From Lachnospiraceae bacterium (GTDB taxonomy: Bacteria; Bacillota; Clostridia; Lachnospirales; Lachnospiraceae), in NCBI GenBank assembly GCA_017500935.1, contig JAFVXW010000066.1:1-64000 (forward strand): a stretch of DNA of 64,000 nucleotides, read 5' to 3'. Positions 6,690 to 56,714 of the stretch are shown here, in pieces (position 1 is the first letter of the stretch; every line of letters starts with the position of its first letter). The position numbers and the translations under genes are program-made. The notes under the pieces are model-generated. The model searched no databases and was not told the origin of the DNA. It saw nothing but the letters and a program-made list of their open reading frames with translations.

Positions 6690-6852
6690 ATGGCTGTCTT
6701 CTTTCATCCAGACTGTACTGTCGGCTTCGGAATTCCTGCGGAGCATATCCGCCAGACATCTATTGTCTGCTGTGAGGTCACCGAATCATGCCTTGCGGCT
6801 CGTGGGCTGTACCACCGGTTGGGAATTGCACCCGACCCTGAAGAACGTTACC
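6690..6852 (-). ncRNA. FMN riboswitch (RFN element)
   Basis: The minus strand carries the conserved RFN blocks in order: TTCTTCAGGGTCGGGTG, AATTCCCAACCGGTGGTA, AGCCCACGAGCCGCAAGG, GATTCGGTGACC, GGAATTCCGAAGCCGACAG, and AGTCTGGATGAAAGAAGA closing P1. It binds FMN and is expected to lower ribU expression when flavin is plentiful, through the terminator at 6604-6626. It starts about 45 nt after the tex stop codon. The stretch 6481-6897 is filled by this riboswitch, its terminator and repeat copy C. Confidence 0.95.
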
Positions 6853-41900: not shown

Positions 41901-44900
41901 TCAGATCTCAAATAACAAGGTCACGATCTCGTAAGGATTTACGGTAAGCTTAATCTCACCTTCCGCAAATGCAGTCTTTGCACGCTCCATCAGATCACTT
42001 TCTGCCCACGCTTTGTATGCAAAGCCGGGTTTTACGGAAACTTTCTGCTTGGAACCGGTGTATTCATGGAAACGTACCACGATATATTTTCCGTCTTCGG
42101 AGCACTTGATGGCATCCAGTTCCACCTGGTCATTGTCAAAGGCTACAAAGCTGTCCGCAAAAGGAAGCGCCGCTTTTCCTTCAAATGCACACAGAGGCTG
42201 ATTTAAACGATATGCTTCTTTGACAGTACCAGCTTCCACGAAATCGCCGGTATGAGGCAGCAGGGAGTAGGTAAATGCATGAGCCCCCTTGTCTGCCGCA
42301 TAGTCAGGATTGTTAGCGGATTTGATCAGGGTCAGACGGATCACGTTGCCGTATACGTCATGGCCGTATTTGCAGTTATTTAACAGGCTGACACCGTAAT
42401 TTCTCTCGGACAGATCCACCCAGCGGTGTGCACAGCTTTCAAATCTCGCGTAATCCCAGCTGGTATTCCAGTTGTTGGGTCTGCGTACATTGCCGTACTG
42501 CACATCATAGGTTGCATAGGTGCTGCGGATATCCACAGGGAATGCGGTCTTTAACAGCTTGTGGGTTTCCTGATAATCTGCATTGGTCACAAAGTCAATG
42601 CGTCTGTCTTTTGCATAGAAAATGATATCCTGCGCGATCTTTGATTTGCGGTATTCCCACTCAGCATGGATCACCAGACGAAGATTGCCGACTTCTTCCA
42701 CAGTCAGGGAGGTCACATTGGTGATCTCTTCCATTTTCTGGTTAAAGTAAATATCAACATCCCATGCGTCAAAATTCAAAGGCTTGTCTTCAAAGATCTG
42801 GAATACGTTGCCGCGCTGTCCTTTGGCCAGAACTTCACGGTCATTTTCCTTGTCATACAGTCTTTCCAGCTGACCTGCATTATTGATCACTGCAGAATAA
42901 AAAGGTGTCTCGATGGCAATGCCTTCCTCACTCTTTGCTGCCGCAAGATCGGTTTCCACTTCTTTGATTTCTCCGTCCTTACGGTAGATGATCTCTGCAC
43001 CGGCTGCGGGAACACTGTTCAGATATACATAAGTACCCTCTTTGGTATACTGGCTTTCCAGCTCCTGCTCCTTGTCATCCACAAAAACAGAACCTTCCTT
43101 CTGGTTGGGGATCAAAAGCATGCCGCCCAGATTCCATGCGCTGTCATTGAATACAGTGTAGCATTCCGCATCACCCTCCACTTTACAAAGTCCGGCTGTC
43201 TGCTTGAAATCATCAATGACTTCACAGGCGTTTTTCTCGATTGCCGCATAGTTGACGTGGGAATCCTCGTAAACTTCACGGATGGAAGAACCGGGAATGA
43301 TGTCATGGAACTGATGGGTCAGAATCTGTCTCCAGCCGTCATCCAGTTTTTCCTGCTGTGCCTTTAAAATGCTGTTTTCACCCATCATGCTGTCAAGCAG
43401 GGTAAACCATTCTGCCTGACGGTACAACAGTTCCATTTTTCGGTTCATCAGCTTATTGTATGCCTGACTGGTGTAGGTGCCTCTGTGATATTCCAGATAC
43501 AGCTCGCCGTCCCATTCATGCACGTACTGATCGGTATTTTTAATGGTTTCTTTTAATTTTTCAAAATAATCGGTCGCCGTGCCGGTTTTGACATTGGGCA
43601 GACCGGGAATCTTGTCCATTCTTCTGTGGCGTTCCAGATTGTCTCTGTTTACACCGCCGCCGCCATCGCCAAAGCCATAGGAAATCAGCAGATCCTGATT
43701 GATCTCCTTATCTTCGTATTTATCCCATACGCCCTTAACAGTCTCGGGAAGGAGCTGTCCGTTGTAGGTTGCACCCCAGGTATCCGGAGACTGTCCCACA
43801 TTGGGAGTTGTGATAAAGTGTGCCAGCACCTCACTGCCGTCAATACCTTTCCACTTGAAGGTGGAGCTGGGCATTCTGTTAAACTGGTTCCAGCTGATCT
43901 TGGTGGTCATAAACATATCAATGCCGGATTTTTTCAGAATCTGGGGAAGTGCCCAGGAATATCCGAATACGTCAGGCAGCCACAGATAATGAGGTTCAGT
44001 GCCAAACTCTTCTTTGAAAAATTTTGTGCCCAGCAGAATCTGACGGGTCAGGGATTCGCCGCTTGTCAGATTGCAGTCTGCCTCAACCCACATCGCACCG
44101 TCGGGTTCCCAGCGGCCCTCTGCCACTTTCGCTTTGATCTTTTCGTAGATTTCCGGGAAATCTTCTTTAATATACGCATAAATCTGGGGCTGTGTCTGTA
44201 AAAAGATATATTCGGGGAACTGCTCCATCAGGCGCAGAACGGTAGAGAAAGAACGGGATGCTTTTTCTCTGGTATGTTTTAAGCGCCACAGCCATGCAGT
44301 ATCAATATGGGTATGGCCGACACAAATAACATTGACTGCACTCTTTTTATCCATTGCATCCAGCTGCGCATTTAAAAATTCGTCTGCTTCCTGAACGGAT
44401 GCATAGTATTCTTCACTGCCCGGTTCACTCCAGTCGATCTTCATAAAGGCTCTGTCCAGCGCGCGGACCAGTTCACCTTTTACAGGATCATTGTCATTTA
44501 AAATCTGCGCGGTCTGCAGCATCATGTCAGCCAGATAATACAGATCATCAGAATAAGGGTCCAGCCAGCCAAACTGTGCAAACTTGATCTCATGCTCCAT
44601 GGCACGGGGCACACCGCCGCCTTCCAGACCGGACCAGAGACGGAAGGTCAGATCCAGTTTTTTGCCGGTATGCTCTTCCTTGAAAAATACTTCCTTGTGG
44701 TTTAAATCCACTGCCTGATAGGGCTCGCCGTTTACATATAAAAGTGACTCAAAACCGGTATTGTTGCCGTCGCCGGTAATGCCAAAGTCAAACACACCAA
44801 CCGCAGCCTTATTTGTCCATTCAGCAGGAATTTCAATTTCTGTATGCAGCCACAGATACAGGTCTCTGCCTGCCCAGCGGTACTTTTCCTCCACACTTTC

Positions 44901-45056
44901 CCAGCCGTCAAAACATACCGGAAGCTCGGGGCGGGCCAGACCGGAACAGTCTTCCTTTACCAGCATGGGGGTAACCTTTTTTAAGTCCCTGTAACGCAGG
45001 GAGCAGACTTCTGCAATGCGCTGCTTTAATTTCGGTTCAGTCCAGAACATATTCAT
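41901..45056 (-). CDS. GH38 alpha-mannosidase
   Basis: Intracellular alpha-mannosidase of 1051 residues, no signal peptide. The catalytic domain starts with VGHTHIDTAWLWRLKHTREK (zinc His and Asp, about 258-276), the nucleophile Asp lies in WVEADCNLTSGESL (about 365), followed by LPDVFGYSWALPQIL and a third zinc His in the HFITTPN segment, with GFGDGGGG later. A beta-rich C-terminal half completes the GH38 layout. ATG 45056 has GGAGG 8 bp upstream. It is followed by a D-lyxose/mannose isomerase gene and preceded by a YihS-type isomerase gene, which points to mannoside use. Confidence 0.93.
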   Translation of the reverse strand: MNMFWTEPKLKQRIAEVCSLRYRDLKKVTPMLVKEDCSGLARPELPVCFDGWESVEEKYRWAGRDLYLWLHTEIEIPAEWTNKAAVGVFDFGITGDGNNTGFESLLYVNGEPYQAVDLNHKEVFFKEEHTGKKLDLTFRLWSGLEGGGVPRAMEHEIKFAQFGWLDPYSDDLYYLADMMLQTAQILNDNDPVKGELVRALDRAFMKIDWSEPGSEEYYASVQEADEFLNAQLDAMDKKSAVNVICVGHTHIDTAWLWRLKHTREKASRSFSTVLRLMEQFPEYIFLQTQPQIYAYIKEDFPEIYEKIKAKVAEGRWEPDGAMWVEADCNLTSGESLTRQILLGTKFFKEEFGTEPHYLWLPDVFGYSWALPQILKKSGIDMFMTTKISWNQFNRMPSSTFKWKGIDGSEVLAHFITTPNVGQSPDTWGATYNGQLLPETVKGVWDKYEDKEINQDLLISYGFGDGGGGVNRDNLERHRRMDKIPGLPNVKTGTATDYFEKLKETIKNTDQYVHEWDGELYLEYHRGTYTSQAYNKLMNRKMELLYRQAEWFTLLDSMMGENSILKAQQEKLDDGWRQILTHQFHDIIPGSSIREVYEDSHVNYAAIEKNACEVIDDFKQTAGLCKVEGDAECYTVFNDSAWNLGGMLLIPNQKEGSVFVDDKEQELESQYTKEGTYVYLNSVPAAGAEIIYRKDGEIKEVETDLAAAKSEEGIAIETPFYSAVINNAGQLERLYDKENDREVLAKGQRGNVFQIFEDKPLNFDAWDVDIYFNQKMEEITNVTSLTVEEVGNLRLVIHAEWEYRKSKIAQDIIFYAKDRRIDFVTNADYQETHKLLKTAFPVDIRSTYATYDVQYGNVRRPNNWNTSWDYARFESCAHRWVDLSERNYGVSLLNNCKYGHDVYGNVIRLTLIKSANNPDYAADKGAHAFTYSLLPHTGDFVEAGTVKEAYRLNQPLCAFEGKAALPFADSFVAFDNDQVELDAIKCSEDGKYIVVRFHEYTGSKQKVSVKPGFAYKAWAESDLMERAKTAFAEGEIKLTVNPYEIVTLLFEI

Positions 45057-45075
45057 GTTTTTTTCCTCCATTTTG

Positions 45076-45108
45076 AAAAACGGCTCAAATCCGGAAGGGT
45101 CTGAGCCG
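45076..45108 (-). terminator. terminator-like hairpin between the isomerase and GH38 genes
   Basis: On the minus strand CGGCTCA pairs with TGAGCCG and is followed by five T, 20 bp before the GH38 start. It may reduce read-through into GH38. Confidence 0.65.
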
Positions 45109-45131
45109 CTTTAACATTTCATTTTTATGTA

Positions 45132-46373
45132 TTATTTGCCTTCTTTTACTGCAGGAGCGATGGACAGGTCAACTGCATGATAAGGGATCAGGGTTGCCTG
45201 AACTGCGTGATACAGGTCAGATTTGCCGGGCCATACAGTGCCGATTACATTGTTGCTGCAGTCAAGCTGATGGAACCAGGAACCGTTTACATGATCCAGA
45301 ACCTTTTCATCCAGATACTGCATAAATTCTGCAAAATCAGCTGCATATTTTTCCTTGCCGGTTACGGTTGCAAGCACTGCGGAAGTGTTGATGGCTTCTG
45401 CCAGAGTCCAGTGCATTCTGTCGCGAACGATCGGAACGCCGTCCCAGCCGGTGGTGTATGCGATGCCGGGTGCGCCGTCAGCGTTCCATGCATCTGCAAC
45501 AGCCTGGTTGTACAGGTTTTCTGCGATGGTGATGTATTTTGCTGCGCCTTCCTTGTCATCGCCAAAAGTGGAGGTTGCCCACTGGGTGATCAGTCTGGAC
45601 CATTCAATGCCGTGACCGGGAGTTGCGCCGTAGGGTTTGAACTGGTCATCGGGCTTGTCCTTGTTGCATTCAAGGTCTGCTACCCAGTCGTCGGAGAAGT
45701 GCTCAGGGATTCTCCAGTTGTTCTCTTCTGCCCAGCCAACTACGTGGTCGATGATGCGGCCTGCTCTTACACGATACTTTTCATCGCCGGTCACATCTGC
45801 AGCTGCCAGAAAAGCTTCTACAGTGTGCATGTTGGCATTGATGCCGCGGTAGGTGTCAAGCTCGGTAAATTCGGTATTCCAGGTATCGCAGGAAAGACCT
45901 TCTTCTTCATTCCAGAAACGAAGATCATATAATGCAAGTGCTTCATCCAGAAGCTCCTTAGCACCTTCAATGCCTGCCAGGTAAGCAGAGGAAGTTGCAA
46001 GGATTACAAATGCATGTGCATAGCACTGCTTGGTGGGAACGATCTGGCCGTCTGCGGTAAGACCTGCATACCAGCCGCCGTTTACGGTGTCGTGCAGTTC
46101 GCCCTGTAAGCCCTTTAAGCCTGCTGCTGCCAGTTCCTTTGCGCCCTCATGTCCCAGAAAGCTTGCCATGCTGTAAACATGTACCATACGGCTGGTGATC
46201 CAGGTTTCACGGTTTCTCTCAGTCCAGGGAGTACCGTCATCGCCCAGATAGTAGGAACCGCCGCCGGGTGAGGGGAATTTGTGACCGAAATTGAACAGGG
46301 TGTTGCGGATCTCTTCCATAAATGCCTTGTTCTCTTCGGTATTGAAAAGATACTTTTTGTTGATTTCGCTCAT
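45132..46373 (-). CDS. AGE-family aldose-ketose isomerase (YihS/mannose isomerase type)
   Basis: A 413-residue (alpha/alpha)6-barrel enzyme of the N-acylglucosamine 2-epimerase family, close to E. coli YihS: TWITSRMVHVYSMA (about 57-70), GGWYAGL, YRGINANMHTVEAFL (His, about 180), GATPGHGIEWSRL (His, about 250) and NGSWFHQLD near the end. YihS-type enzymes isomerise sulfoquinovose and also mannose to fructose. No sulfo-sugar genes are nearby and a GH38 gene follows, so D-mannose isomerase is my preferred reading. Confidence 0.88.
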   Translation of the reverse strand: MSEINKKYLFNTEENKAFMEEIRNTLFNFGHKFPSPGGGSYYLGDDGTPWTERNRETWITSRMVHVYSMASFLGHEGAKELAAAGLKGLQGELHDTVNGGWYAGLTADGQIVPTKQCYAHAFVILATSSAYLAGIEGAKELLDEALALYDLRFWNEEEGLSCDTWNTEFTELDTYRGINANMHTVEAFLAAADVTGDEKYRVRAGRIIDHVVGWAEENNWRIPEHFSDDWVADLECNKDKPDDQFKPYGATPGHGIEWSRLITQWATSTFGDDKEGAAKYITIAENLYNQAVADAWNADGAPGIAYTTGWDGVPIVRDRMHWTLAEAINTSAVLATVTGKEKYAADFAEFMQYLDEKVLDHVNGSWFHQLDCSNNVIGTVWPGKSDLYHAVQATLIPYHAVDLSIAPAVKEGK

Positions 46374-49421: not shown

Positions 49422-49922
49422 TTAAAAACTGCGGATCTGTTCATCATCGGTTGCTGTTTTGTCAATGGCTTTGACCACCACATAATAACCTGCGCCTTTT
49501 CCGATCTCCACAAAAACACGGTCTCCCACCTTTTTGCCAATCAGGGCTTTTCCCAGAGGCGATTCCACAGAAATCAGACCTTCCAGAGAATTCTGACGCA
49601 TGGTGGTGACAATCTTGTAAGTTTCCATCTCACAATCTTCTTCAAACCATACATCCACACGATTGTTAACACCAACCTCATCCGCAGCAGAATCATCTTC
49701 GATCACCTCTGCGGTCCGTATCATACGCTCTAAAAAACGGATACGGCTTTCATTTTTATTCTTGAATTTTTTAGCAGCATAGTATTCAAAATTTTCAGAA
49801 AGATCGCCCTGTGCTCTGGCTGATTTTACATCCTCCAGTGCTTCCTGACGCACCACAAGCTTTCTGTATTCGATCTCCTCCTGCATTTTTTTGATATCAT
49901 TTTCTGTCAACTGGTTGCGCAT
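49422..49922 (-). CDS. greA: transcription elongation factor GreA/GreB family
   Basis: RNA polymerase secondary-channel factor that triggers cleavage of stalled transcripts. The 166-residue protein has the coiled-coil finger with its tip ARAQGDLSENFEYYAAKKF (acidic Asp and Glu, about 39-53) and a C-terminal FKBP-like domain with SPLGKALIGKKVGD. I prefer ATG 49922; a GTG three codons earlier is too near its GGAG. It lies 28 bp after the GTPase-nuclease fusion gene and 13 bp before the RmlD-like gene. It may be a second greA in the genome, as the tip (NFEYYAAKKF) departs from the common form. Confidence 0.92.
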   Translation of the reverse strand: MRNQLTENDIKKMQEEIEYRKLVVRQEALEDVKSARAQGDLSENFEYYAAKKFKNKNESRIRFLERMIRTAEVIEDDSAADEVGVNNRVDVWFEEDCEMETYKIVTTMRQNSLEGLISVESPLGKALIGKKVGDRVFVEIGKGAGYYVVVKAIDKTATDDEQIRSF

Positions 49923-49950
49923 CGCGCTCACTGCTCCTTTTTTAAACCTG

Positions 49951-52806
49951 TTATAATTCTCTCTTGCCCAATCGTACCTCTTCCATCATGGCCGCCATCT
50001 CTTCATCCATATGGTTGAAAAGATAGTTTTTGCCGGACTGCCGCCTTGCTTCCCAGGTTTCCAGAATTTCCTGTCTGGTGCGCTCCACTTCCTCTTTAAG
50101 CTCTCTGGCAGAAAGCCTTCTTGCACCCTGTCCGAAAATAATGATCTGCTCCAGCGCGTCAGAGGTTGCTACCGTGACATGATGCTGTTTTCCCAGTTCA
50201 TGGGCTGTCTTTTCGATATACTGATCGGCCGTTTCCGCTTCTTTTGTAAATACCACATCAATGTTATGGTATTTTAAAACAGAACCGGGATTTCCGGGGA
50301 CACGATAGGCGTCAAAAACCAGAATCAGCACACACTGTTTAAAGCCCTGATAGTTGCACAGAATGTCCATCAGCTTGTCACGGGCGCTTTCCACATTGAC
50401 CTGCGCCAGTTCCTTCAATTCTTCCCATGCAAAAATGATATTGTAACCGTCCACCAGCAGATATTCCTGCACAGCGGATTTTGCCTCTGCCTTTAAAGCT
50501 CTTTTCCCGGCAGCAGTCTGCTCTGCACCCTTTTGGACGCCGAAAGCTCCCGGCGTCTGCTGTGTACCGGTGTCTGCCCCTAAAATACGCGGGCCGTTTG
50601 CGGTTGCCCTTGACTGGCTGGTTACACCGATTCCGGCTCCTTTTGCCGGTTTGGAATCACTTTTGCCTGTATAACGGCGTTTTTCATAGCCATGCTTTTC
50701 CCGCTTGTTCTGTCCGTATGTGCGGGCAAAAATCTCATCCAGTTCTTCCTGGCTGATCCCTTCCGGCAGCTCATAAGTGCGCACCTGCTGCTGCGGCACT
50801 TCTTCCTCCTGCCTGCGGGGGTTTGAATAAGGCGTTTCCACATGCATATAATCCGGCACTTCATACCAGGGCACCACAAATCCTGCTCCGTGGGCACAGA
50901 AAACGGAATCCGGCGAATTTTCCAGATCCGCTTCCGGATCATAGGCACGCGCTGCGATCACCTCTTCTGCATTGTGGCAGGGTTCATATCCCTTTAACGT
51001 ACAGAAAATCCGTCCGCGTCCTTTTGTGTAGGCAGTCAGCTCTGTCTGATAGCCGCGCATGGTGACAACCGGTGCGCTGCCGGTTAACACAGACATATCC
51101 CCTTCCATCATCGGAGGTTCAAAACTGCCCTGCATCTTCTGAATATCCGTCATGGCACGTCCCACATTCTCCGTGGGCAGCTCGATCCTAAACGCATAGA
51201 CCGGCTCCAGAAGCTGACTCTGGGTACTCATCAGGCCCTGCCGGATCGCCCGATAGGTGGACTGTCTGAAATCGCCGCCCTCTGTATGTTTTAAATGCGC
51301 CCTGCCGCCCACCAGTGTGATCTTCATATCCGTGATCTCTGACCGGGTCAGCACGCCCACATGCTTTTTTTCTTCCAGATGGGTCAAAACCAGCCTTTGC
51401 CAGTTTTTGTCCAGCTCATCTTCGCTGACACCCATTGCAAACTGCAGACCGCTTCCGCGCTCTGTCGGTTCCATCCACAAATGCACCTCCGCATAATGGC
51501 GCAGCGGTTCATAATGTCCCACACCTTCCACCGGTGCAGTGATCGTTTCTTTATAAACAATACTGCCGGAGCCAAATTCCACCGAAACACCGTAACGCTC
51601 TGCGATCTGGCTTTTTAAAATCTCGATCTGCACTTCGCCCATGACCTGTGCATGGATCTCGCCGCTTTCTTCTTCCCATACGATATGCAGCTGCGGCTCC
51701 TCTTCTTCCAGTGCCCGCAGTTTTAACAGCATCTGATGTACATCGCAGTCTTCCGGCAATATGATGCGGTATGTCAGTACCGGCTCCAGAACCGGCAGTA
51801 CACTTTCTGTTTCCCAACCAAGTCCCTGACCGGCAAAAGTCTTTGTCAGACCGGTCACCGCACAGATTCCGCCGGCTTCCATTTCCTGTACCGGTGTAAA
51901 GGAAGAACCGGAATACACCCGCAGCTGATCTGCCTTTTCCTCCCAATACTCCTGCGAAGCACTGTCAATCCCCGGCTGACCTGCATTGCTTAACAGCTGT
52001 TTGACTCTGAGCGTTCCGCCGGTCACCTTTACATAGGTCAGGCGTTTTCCCTGCTCATCTCTGGCAATTTTAAAAACTCTGGCTCCAAACGCTTCCGGCC
52101 AGGAGGGTACCACAGCATAAGTATCCAGAGCATCAAGCAGCTCCTGTACACCTTCCACTTTCAGCGCTGATCCAAAAAACACCGGAAAGATTTTTCTCTC
52201 CCGAATCGCTCCTGCAATCTGCGGCACTGACAATTCTGCATTTTCCAGAAAATATTCCAGCAGTTTTTCATCACAGACTGCTGCGTTTTCCCAAAAAGTT
52301 TCGTCATTATCCGCTGCATCCGAAAAATCCACACAATTTTCATGCAGCCGGGCTTTTATTTCTGAAAGAAGGGCCTGCTTATCAGTATCCGGCTGATCCA
52401 TTTTATTTACAAAAATGAACACCGGAATTTCATAACGTATCAGCAGACGCCACAAAGTTTCCACATGTCCCTGTACTCCGTCCGCACCGCTGATGATCAG
52501 CACCGCATAATCCAGCACCTGCAGTGTCCTTTCCATTTCTGCCGAAAAATCCACATGCCCCGGCGTATCCAGAAGCGTCACTTTATGACAAGGCAGCTCA
52601 CACTCTGCCTGTTTGGAAAAAATCGTGATTCCTCTGGCTCTTTCCAACGCATAAGTATCCAAAAAGGCATTCTGATGATCCACTCTGCCAAGCTTGCGGA
52701 TCCTGCCGGTCAGATACATAATGCTTTCTGCCAGAGTGGTCTTGCCGGCATCCACATGGGCCAACAGACCAACACTGATATTCTTTTTTCTTCTCTGTTC
52801 GCCCAT
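49951..52806 (-). CDS. TetM/EF-G-like translational GTPase fused to a Rae1/YacP-type NYN nuclease domain
   Basis: A 951-residue two-part protein. Residues 1 to about 700 form a ribosomal-protection-type GTPase: P-loop AHVDAGKTT (16-24), RGIT (58-61), DTPGH (80-84), NKMD (134-137), GSAL (about 215), then EF-G-like domains II-V with GRAHLKHTEGGDFR in domain IV. About 700-781 is a low-complexity linker. Residues 782-951 match Rae1/YacP: LLVDGYNII, LVFDAYR, VVFTKEAETADQYIE, TSDALEQIIIFGQGARRLSARE; candidate metal Asp are at about 786, 832, 861 and 883. Rae1 of B. subtilis cuts mRNA in the ribosomal A site, so the fusion suggests ribosome-delivered mRNA cleavage. Tetracycline resistance is not implied. 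greA follows by 28 bp. Confidence 0.9.
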   Translation of the reverse strand: MGEQRRKKNISVGLLAHVDAGKTTLAESIMYLTGRIRKLGRVDHQNAFLDTYALERARGITIFSKQAECELPCHKVTLLDTPGHVDFSAEMERTLQVLDYAVLIISGADGVQGHVETLWRLLIRYEIPVFIFVNKMDQPDTDKQALLSEIKARLHENCVDFSDAADNDETFWENAAVCDEKLLEYFLENAELSVPQIAGAIRERKIFPVFFGSALKVEGVQELLDALDTYAVVPSWPEAFGARVFKIARDEQGKRLTYVKVTGGTLRVKQLLSNAGQPGIDSASQEYWEEKADQLRVYSGSSFTPVQEMEAGGICAVTGLTKTFAGQGLGWETESVLPVLEPVLTYRIILPEDCDVHQMLLKLRALEEEEPQLHIVWEEESGEIHAQVMGEVQIEILKSQIAERYGVSVEFGSGSIVYKETITAPVEGVGHYEPLRHYAEVHLWMEPTERGSGLQFAMGVSEDELDKNWQRLVLTHLEEKKHVGVLTRSEITDMKITLVGGRAHLKHTEGGDFRQSTYRAIRQGLMSTQSQLLEPVYAFRIELPTENVGRAMTDIQKMQGSFEPPMMEGDMSVLTGSAPVVTMRGYQTELTAYTKGRGRIFCTLKGYEPCHNAEEVIAARAYDPEADLENSPDSVFCAHGAGFVVPWYEVPDYMHVETPYSNPRRQEEEVPQQQVRTYELPEGISQEELDEIFARTYGQNKREKHGYEKRRYTGKSDSKPAKGAGIGVTSQSRATANGPRILGADTGTQQTPGAFGVQKGAEQTAAGKRALKAEAKSAVQEYLLVDGYNIIFAWEELKELAQVNVESARDKLMDILCNYQGFKQCVLILVFDAYRVPGNPGSVLKYHNIDVVFTKEAETADQYIEKTAHELGKQHHVTVATSDALEQIIIFGQGARRLSARELKEEVERTRQEILETWEARRQSGKNYLFNHMDEEMAAMMEEVRLGKREL

Positions 52807-52874
52807 GAAAAAAAGGACCCCCTTCTGTGCATAATAAAGTATTATAGCACAAAGGAGGGCTTTAGTCGATATTG

Positions 52875-55185: not shown

Positions 55186-56544
55186 TTACAGCTTTACATG
55201 CTTCATGGTCATTTTTACGCGTTCGGAAATCTTCACAGTGCCCACACCGAAAATGGAAGTGTAGAGAGTATCACGGATCGGATCTTTCCAGTATGCATCA
55301 ATGCCGTCGATACCCAGCATCATACCCAGTACGGAACCTACGGTTGCACCGTTGCAGTCTGTATCGAAACCGGTTTCTACAGACATACAGATGGATTTGC
55401 CGTAATCTCCCTCGCCGTACAGCAGGGCAGCCGCTACGATCATCGCATTGGAATTGGTATGACACCAGCCATGCTCGGTATATTCATCATAAGCCTCATG
55501 GATGTGTGCAAAACAGTCTTCTTTGGAAACACCGCTGTCATAATCGTTGATCACAAGCATCACATCGCGGTAAAGTCTGGAGGTTGCAGGAACCTGTGCC
55601 AGACCGCCCAGGATCACATCCTTGATATTGTTTGTTTCTGCTGCGCAGGCAATCATTGCCGCTGCAAACATTTCACCGTAGATACCGTTCTTGATATGGG
55701 AAATGGAAGCATCACGGAATGCCATATCTGCTGCGGTCTGAGGATCGCCGGGATTGATATAGCCAAAATAGTCACCGCGGATCTGCGCGCCGATCCATTC
55801 GCGGAAAGGATTCTGGTATACCGCAGATACCGGAGGCTCATAACCGTTTACAAAATTACAGAATGCAACGCGTTCAGCGGTACAGTAAGCATCTTTTCTC
55901 TGATCAGCAAGCCATGCTCTGGAAACATCCCAGGAGGTAAAATCGCGTCCGTATTTTTCCACGAGCTTCTGTGCCAGAACCACATAGTTGGTATCATCAT
56001 CCACAGGCATACCATCCACTTCATCCGCATAGCAGGTATTGACAAAATCAAACTTATATTTTTTCAGCGTTTCTTCTGTGATATCGCTCTTGTAAATATA
56101 TCTGTGCATCGGATAATTGCCGCTCTCTGTCAAAAACGGAATCAGCTCATTGGTACGGATACCTTCCACGGTTTTGCCCAGCAGACAGCCGCAGATCCTG
56201 CCCATCCATGCACCGTGAATCTTCTCTTCCAGCTTATCGGGATCGATGGGAGTCTTTTCATATTCATAAGGTTTTCTCAACGCAAAAATACCGGGCAGAT
56301 CCGAAGGTTCATTATAGGGGTAGCCTTCCACTGTGGGTGCATTTTTTACCACCTCAAACAAAGCATCACTCAGCTGCTTTTTGATCTCGTCCTTGGGCAG
56401 TTTGGATACAGCCTCAAACACTTCTTTGTAGGAAGCGATGTCCAGACCTTCCTCGATGGACTGCTCATATTCGGTCATCAGATAGGAACCGTAAAATTCC
56501 CAGTCGTGAAGTTTGTTGTAATTGGGTTTGATCGTTTTATTCAT
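55186..56544 (-). CDS. ADP-ribosylglycohydrolase family protein
   Basis: A 452-residue DraG-type fold protein. The core starts at HGAWMGRICGCLLGKTVEG (about 112-130), metal ligands lie in VDDDTNYVVLAQKLVE (about 185-200) and near the end in TGFDTDCNGATVGSVLGMMLG (about 400-420), the family pair. About 100 N-terminal residues precede the core. The substrate may be an ADP-ribosyl group or another glycosyl bond, as family members of gut bacteria are diverse. ATG 56544 has GGAGG 7 bp upstream; it is the first gene of the run. A + strand open frame opposite it is a shadow. Confidence 0.88.
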   Translation of the reverse strand: MNKTIKPNYNKLHDWEFYGSYLMTEYEQSIEEGLDIASYKEVFEAVSKLPKDEIKKQLSDALFEVVKNAPTVEGYPYNEPSDLPGIFALRKPYEYEKTPIDPDKLEEKIHGAWMGRICGCLLGKTVEGIRTNELIPFLTESGNYPMHRYIYKSDITEETLKKYKFDFVNTCYADEVDGMPVDDDTNYVVLAQKLVEKYGRDFTSWDVSRAWLADQRKDAYCTAERVAFCNFVNGYEPPVSAVYQNPFREWIGAQIRGDYFGYINPGDPQTAADMAFRDASISHIKNGIYGEMFAAAMIACAAETNNIKDVILGGLAQVPATSRLYRDVMLVINDYDSGVSKEDCFAHIHEAYDEYTEHGWCHTNSNAMIVAAALLYGEGDYGKSICMSVETGFDTDCNGATVGSVLGMMLGIDGIDAYWKDPIRDTLYTSIFGVGTVKISERVKMTMKHVKL

Positions 56545-56635
56545 AAGACTACCTCCAAAATTGGTATTTTTATCTATTAACAGCATAACGTACCTGACAT
56601 CTTTTATCAAGTTAAGAATTGATGTATCCATACTC

Positions 56636-56664
56636 TTGCCAAACAAACTTCGACAGGCTACAAT
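56636..56664 (+). promoter_or_regulatory. sigma-A promoter for upp
   Basis: -35 TTGCCA (56636-56641), 17-bp spacer, -10 TACAAT (56659-56664), 50 bp before the upp start. Confidence 0.7.
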
Positions 56665-56714
56665 AACAGCAGGAGCAAATGCCAAAGAACTGACACCACA
56701 GAAAGGAATCCATC

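Follow-up and report, generated by a model that had tools for sequence, protein, structure and literature searches.

The sequences that admit the nuclease Rae1 to the ribosome are still poorly defined. Few bacterial nucleases are known to act on mRNA in the A site of the ribosome, and Rae1 is described as one of them (PMC12320835; further background in PMC11780869), and for the Bacillus subtilis enzyme translation-dependent cleavage of mRNA at this site has been reported (PMC10100781, PMC12320835). Here we have analysed a stretch of 64,000 nucleotides (the window) from a gut-type Clostridia bacterium of the family Lachnospiraceae, which contains a gene whose product joins an EF-G-like GTPase to a Rae1-type domain. 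The locus raises the question of whether such a protein is an accident or a family and, if it is a family, how it relates to the free Rae1 of other Clostridia and to the Tet proteins to which its GTPase half was initially likened.

A GTPase and a Rae1-type nuclease in one open frame

The gene is read from 52806 to 49951, and its 951 codons contain zero internal stops, which agrees with the position and length given in the initial annotation and adds the strand (minus) that had been left unstated. Its features are collected in Table 1. The layout of the EF2 family is complete, a G domain with its motifs being followed in order by domains 2, III, IV and V (Pfam), as had been read from the letters alone. 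In a fold search, the predicted model of the protein resembles EF-G chains across residues 3-626; among the matches listed, all within that span, there are no Tet(M) or Tet(O) chains. This search barely touched the NYN part, whose fold assignment is sequence-based: the NYN_YacP profile is matched from position 1 to 165 of 166 (Pfam, E 2e-55; 187.7 bits against a cut-off of 24.6), and comparison with solved structures returns the B. subtilis YacP chains 5mq9/5mq8 (best E 6.5e-29). The earlier identification of the C-terminal part as Rae1/YacP is thereby secured. The whole NYN domain can be aligned with the B. subtilis protein, D7, D53, D81 and D104 of which correspond to D786, D832, D861 and D883 of the fusion. 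The Pfam search of the fusion protein found no domain beyond the GTPase/EF-G set and NYN_YacP.

Table 1. Positions of the fusion gene, its parts and adjoining features in the window
Feature	Position	Strand	Basis or remark
GTPase-linker-NYN fusion, whole gene, 951 aa	49951..52806	(-)	ATG start at 52806
GTP-binding domain, residues 8-231, complete G motifs	52114..52785	(-)	Pfam PF00009 (GTP_EFTU), E 9.4e-52
EF-G domain 2 (EF-G_D2), residues 241-325	51832..52086	(-)	Pfam, 25.1 bits, slightly below the cut-off of 27
EF-G domain III (EFG_III), residues 341-412	51571..51786	(-)	Pfam
EF-G domain IV (EFG_IV), residues 415-527	51226..51564	(-)	Pfam
Domain IV tip loop GRAHLKHTEGGDFR, residues 501-514	51265..51306	(-)	Tet(M)/Tet(O) rows there: YYSPVS
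EF-G domain V (EFG_C), residues 531-612	50971..51216	(-)	Pfam
Subfamily-specific C-terminal extension, residues 613-657	50836..50970	(-)	unfused relatives stop directly after it
Linker, residues 658-780, mostly predicted disordered	50467..50835	(-)	72-160 residues long in 81 fused proteins
Conserved short helix within the linker, residues 686-697	50716..50751	(-)	structure model and column counts
NYN_YacP (Rae1) nuclease domain, residues 783-945; Asp 786, 832, 861, 883	49972..50460	(-)	Pfam, PDB-chain match, conservation
GreA/GreB transcription elongation factor gene	49422-49931	(-)	begins 19 bases after the fusion gene, same strand
Promoter-like site TCGACT-17-TATAAT	52841..52869	(-)	consensus match only; leader to ATG about 28 nt

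A scan of genome contigs found at least 590 genome stretches that encode a relative of the query, not necessarily all of them fusions. At all of the best 80 of these at least 590 loci the fusion lies in a single open frame (L001, the window's own gene in cut form, being excluded from this set), and it is therefore not an assembly accident. Together with the window protein, the best 80 of the at least 590 loci make up a set of 81 fused proteins. In all 81 of them the GTPase residues K22, T61, D80, H84, N134, K135 and D137 are invariant, as are H504, K506, H507 and D512 at the tip of domain IV and the nuclease residues D786, N789, D832, D861, S882 and D883. D786, D832, D861 and D883, the four aspartates whose conservation in homologues had been expected, we take to be the catalytic set of the NYN domain. 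Since the GTPase and NYN residues are identical throughout this set, both enzymes look active. The linker is predicted to be disordered, as proposed initially, with pLDDT below 50 at 662-685 and 697-777; the exception is the helix at 686-697, conserved among the 81 proteins at E688 (79), I692 (80) and T696 (76). These column counts were used in place of motif searches, in which a strict regular expression matched 7 of the 81 sequences and a looser one 39.

The fusion family is thus real and widespread, and its presumed spread in the Lachnospiraceae is supported. One relative, from Monoglobus, is annotated as a 'translation factor GTPase family protein'. Broken fusion frames were seen in genomes G044 and G190, and in genome G337 (locus L218) the GTPase and the NYN domain of the fusion are encoded in two separate, overlapping frames of 712 and 214 residues, which reflects fission, a frameshift or an assembly error.

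Relationship of the GTPase half to Tet proteins and EF-G

The 'TetM' part of the initial label did not hold. The tet_protect model (NF012153) is the best NCBIfam match of the GTPase, but at 402.3 bits it does not reach the equivalog cut-off of 775; the EF-G equivalog TIGR00484 is likewise not reached (306.6 bits against 659.4). A quick tree with 52 rows places its 33 fused GTPases (15 from the 81-protein set and 18 others, partial rows excluded) in a single group with an SH-aLRT of 94, which is joined by 12 unfused GTPases whose grouping among themselves is weak (59). The fused and unfused members are parted together from Tet(M)/Tet(O) by a long branch with a support of 99, a value for which the program warns of long branches. 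On these comparisons the GTPase half forms a separate subfamily, also found unfused. The unfused members have about 655 residues and end directly after the C-terminal extension.

The tip of domain IV also sets the subfamily apart. Its loops read GHxEPLRHYAEVHL and GRAHxKHTxGGDFR, whereas the Tet rows have YYSPVS; this Tet-type tip loop, presumably the one that displaces the tetracycline drug in Tet proteins, is missing in the fusion, where AHLKHT takes its place. Tet domain IV has been described with three loops (PMC4342817). Tet(M) and Tet(O) share the EF-G-like domain order and are about 29-30% identical to the fusion over residues 3-609, but they lack both a C-terminal extension of the subfamily type and the nuclease. 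The classification of the GTPase as a certified Tet protein was rejected because of its score below the cut-off, its position in the tree and its differing domain IV loops. As for EF-G, the EF-G-type proteins of the window's own genome are about 24-27% identical to the fusion and have another domain IV tip, and the nuclease domain is a feature of the fusion.

Several other GTPase genes were seen along the way. The window's own genome has two genes of EF-G length (L083 and L085; 713 and 711 codons). Genome G027, in which a free rae1 is retained, encodes a protein resembling Tet(M) (L144, about 644 residues), whose identity to the query equals that of tet(M). Genome G106 has unfused-GTPase matches at two sites (L141, L145), and in genome G146 two GTPase matches (L142 and L146) look overlapping or neighbouring, the longer frame having 729 residues.

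Distribution of fused and free Rae1

A YacP domain was found in 133 of 196 Clostridia genomes, each with exactly one above the cut-off. Sixty-nine of these domains lie in long frames, 59 are free proteins of 168-216 residues and five lie in broken or contig-cut frames. If fused and free forms were distributed independently, about 22 genomes with both would be expected (Fisher p 6e-16 over 196 genomes, kinship ignored). Two fusion carriers, G120 and G174, each have a second YacP match below the cut-off. In a sample of the phylum, 71 of 119 genomes have a YacP match, again one each, and eight of these lie in long frames over the cut-off. In the window's own family, 80 of 90 genomes have YacP, and the exception to the rule of one is G334, with two matches, the second cut by the contig start. 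That the fusion genomes sampled have no separate nuclease suggests that the fused protein took over its job.

The chromosomal site of free rae1 provides a second line of evidence. In B. subtilis, rae1 is co-transcribed with rlmB/yacO (PMC6613710). In the class sample, rlmB lies directly before and sigH shortly after the gene at 31 of 37 free loci, and at the remaining six only one of the two is nearby; in the window's family, five of six free loci follow rlmB. The sixth (L212, genome G348) is a free NYN gene with neither rlmB nor sigH within 8.5 kb; G348 also encodes an unfused GTPase. Of the class sample, this check covered 22 of the 74 genomes with the fusion and 37 of the 59 with free rae1. 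Within 1.5 kb downstream of rlmB, an intact rae1 is absent from all 22 fusion genomes, 17 of which have sigH as the next gene. The window's own genome has the same arrangement: rlmB runs into sigH, and the fused NYN domain is at a different locus. In three of the 22 genomes, a search with a free-Rae1 model found decayed remnants of rae1 in the slot, at the expected place and on the expected strand: G022 (E 3e-11), the only one strong by itself, and the weak G097 (3.5e-5) and G075 (3.5e-4). A control with reversed sequences gave no match. We read these remnants as what are probably native rae1 genes decaying since the fusion arrived.

Taken with the grouping of the NYN domains given below, the exclusion, the empty slot and the remnants make it very probable that the fusion replaces free Rae1 and has taken over its job. 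The link to Rae1 made in the initial annotation is thus upheld as a replacement rather than a mere likeness.

The halves also occur on their own. Eleven genomes of the class have an unfused GTPase, six of them with a free rae1 and five with no YacP. Genomes G178, G025, G054, G068 and G028 lack YacP altogether and encode unfused members of the subfamily (L173-L177), which indicates that the GTPase has a life of its own. Conversely, at E 1e-50 no GTPase match was found in 27 of 35 genomes with free Rae1, and in two others the matches are to other Tet-type proteins alone. As each half occurs alone, nothing points to an obligate partnership preceding the fusion, and such a pairing was rejected on the five of 11 unfused-GTPase genomes without YacP. 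In the window's family, four genomes (G343, G323, G348 and G380) have both halves unfused; the GTPase frame of G380 is interrupted.

Fused and free nuclease domains compared

Twenty-one of the 23 positions conserved among 53 free Rae1 are also kept in 101 fused domains (L127, L090, L128 and L126 left aside), and the four catalytic-type Asp columns are present in all 53 free proteins. The two positions that are not kept, R897 and E902, stand at the opening of the C-terminal part. B. subtilis Rae1 is a free protein of 170 residues, whereas the fused form is the C-terminal domain of a GTPase, sits at another locus and often has a shortened tail. Counted from the TSD motif, this tail has 61-70 residues in 53 of 55 free Rae1 but 26-92 in the fused proteins, with 36 of 101 distinct fused rows (relatedness ignored) at 55 residues or fewer. 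The comparison used 104 fused rows, 101 of them distinct, without L127, L219, L220, L222, L230, L090, L126 and L129; the free outliers are L217 (142 residues) and L193 (25), the latter probably explained by an erroneous motif hit, since the domain itself is matched over its full length. Tail lengths do not differ significantly in a Mann-Whitney test (p 0.42), because the fused tails deviate in both directions; the medians are alike, and the count of short tails alone differs. The profile match ends before position 160 in 44 of 73 fused against 1 of 59 free domains (counted by eye; the contig-cut G071 left out). In B. subtilis, R166P, which lies in the tail, is among the class II (loss-of-function) suppressors (PMC6613710). 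We infer that the tail helps free Rae1 to act on ribosomes and could be spared once a GTPase does the docking.

As to the origin of the fused domain, the fused NYN domains group, with a support of 99, with free Rae1 from the order and family to which the window belongs (43 fused and six free rows). This tree excluded 15 free rows that were long or redundant as well as L127, L090, L128, L115, L125 and L126; it retained L217, a row of 56 residues that sits misplaced on a very long branch. In unconstrained quick trees the fused domains do not all fall in a single clade, and in one of them (L127, L090 and L128 excluded) the free Rae1 of G140 sits inside the fused group; a single fused clade is nevertheless not rejected (p-AU 0.86 and 0.947 for two NYN trees). 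One genus holds both states, fused in G022, G120 and G174 and free in G051, which fits swaps. The simplest account would be one fusion from an rae1 of the window's order or family, which then spread.

Possible mode of action and prior work

Most likely, Rae1 has moved in the fusion onto a translational GTPase, which carries it to ribosomes whose A site is accessible. That the GTPase guides the nuclease is somewhat more probable than otherwise; ribosome binding, cleavage in the A site and the order of GTPase before nuclease are deduced. The EF-G-shaped half in its GTP form would bind paused or stalled ribosomes with an accessible A site, and the tether would keep the nuclease beside that site. 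GTP hydrolysis would then withdraw domain IV, allowing the nuclease to enter and cut the A-site codon, and mRNA decay and ordinary rescue would follow. The separate occurrence of the two halves counts against this mechanism, as does the fact that Rae1 and domain IV would be competitors for one site, so that they would have to act in turn or on different ribosomes. More tentatively, and with the balance slightly against it, the protein may be a GTP-gated mRNA surveillance nuclease in one chain, in which the GTPase picks paused ribosomes and times the entry of Rae1, the docking tail being dispensable. Such a GTP-gated nuclease would be the convergent equivalent in bacteria of eukaryotic no-go decay, in which the same stalled ribosomes are targeted by both a translational GTPase and an endonuclease.

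The fusion might also have replaced Rae1 with its GTPase merely keeping the nuclease near translation, performing for example another ribosomal job, so that the two activities are not mechanically coupled. Such a loose union would suit the independent existence of the halves and the long, mostly disordered linker; we consider it rather unlikely, since the fused form persists widely with its G motifs and aspartates intact in all 81 proteins (best 80 of at least 590 loci plus the window), the helix in the linker is conserved and the nuclease tail is relaxed in the fused form only. The competition for a single A site would be avoided altogether if the GTPase bound one of two collided ribosomes and the tethered nuclease cut in the A site of its neighbour, a distance that linkers of 72-160 residues could perhaps span. 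However, Pfam found no further domain in the fusion, and we regard this action in trans as improbable.

An antibiotic-resistance factor was proposed earlier: Atkinson 2015 (PMC4342817) describes in one passage Tet proteins of ten Clostridiales that carry an NYN domain like that of YacP, with the hypothesis that an RNase added to a Tet-like ribosomal protection protein is a new resistance mechanism. These proteins have the same architecture as the fusion and evidently belong to the same family. Their classification as Tet in that work, the relatedness of the GTPase half to Tet and the rank of tet_protect as top NCBIfam match (402 bits) speak for resistance. However, that score is far below 775, Tet(M) and Tet(O) fall outside the subfamily and the Tet tip loop is missing; the fusion has a chromosomal-type spread accompanied by loss of rae1, which a resistance gene should not require, and the leader in the window is short, with no room for an attenuator. 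We therefore consider resistance the least probable of these readings.

The architecture has thus been in print since 2015, and the statement of the initial annotation that no experimental report on such a fusion was known stands for experiments only, none being found among the titles listed in our literature searches, where Atkinson 2015 was also the sole title on the fusion among the matches listed. What is new is that the protein stands in for Rae1, on a GTPase subfamily that is separate, both of which go beyond what that passage reports. Such a natural stand-in for free Rae1, occurring in many Clostridia, singles out as a partner a GTPase subfamily with no known function, and it allows recruitment to be tested directly in common gut bacteria. 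At the same time, the 2015 remark on Tet and an RNase becomes a specific hypothesis, of mRNA surveillance rather than drug resistance, and Tet-type labels for the family may mislead.

Gene surroundings

A search for a conserved neighbourhood at 81 loci (the 80 and the window) found no general neighbour family. An ABC-ATPase-like group occurs at 14 of the 81, in scattered places, and a greA-like gene at 10, mostly directly downstream. No terminator-like hairpin (attenuator) was found in the leader of the window. Among the 73 loci whose upstream sequence is long enough, 10 have such hairpins within 300 nt upstream, where a crude shuffle predicts 0.1; these hairpins may be part of the preceding gene. 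Elsewhere in the window, all on the minus strand, are an FMN riboswitch (6692-6849, 90.7 bits), an alpha-mannosidase (GH38) gene adjoining a GlcNAc 2-epimerase-family gene (41901-46373) and an ADP-ribosylglycohydrolase-family gene (55186-56685).
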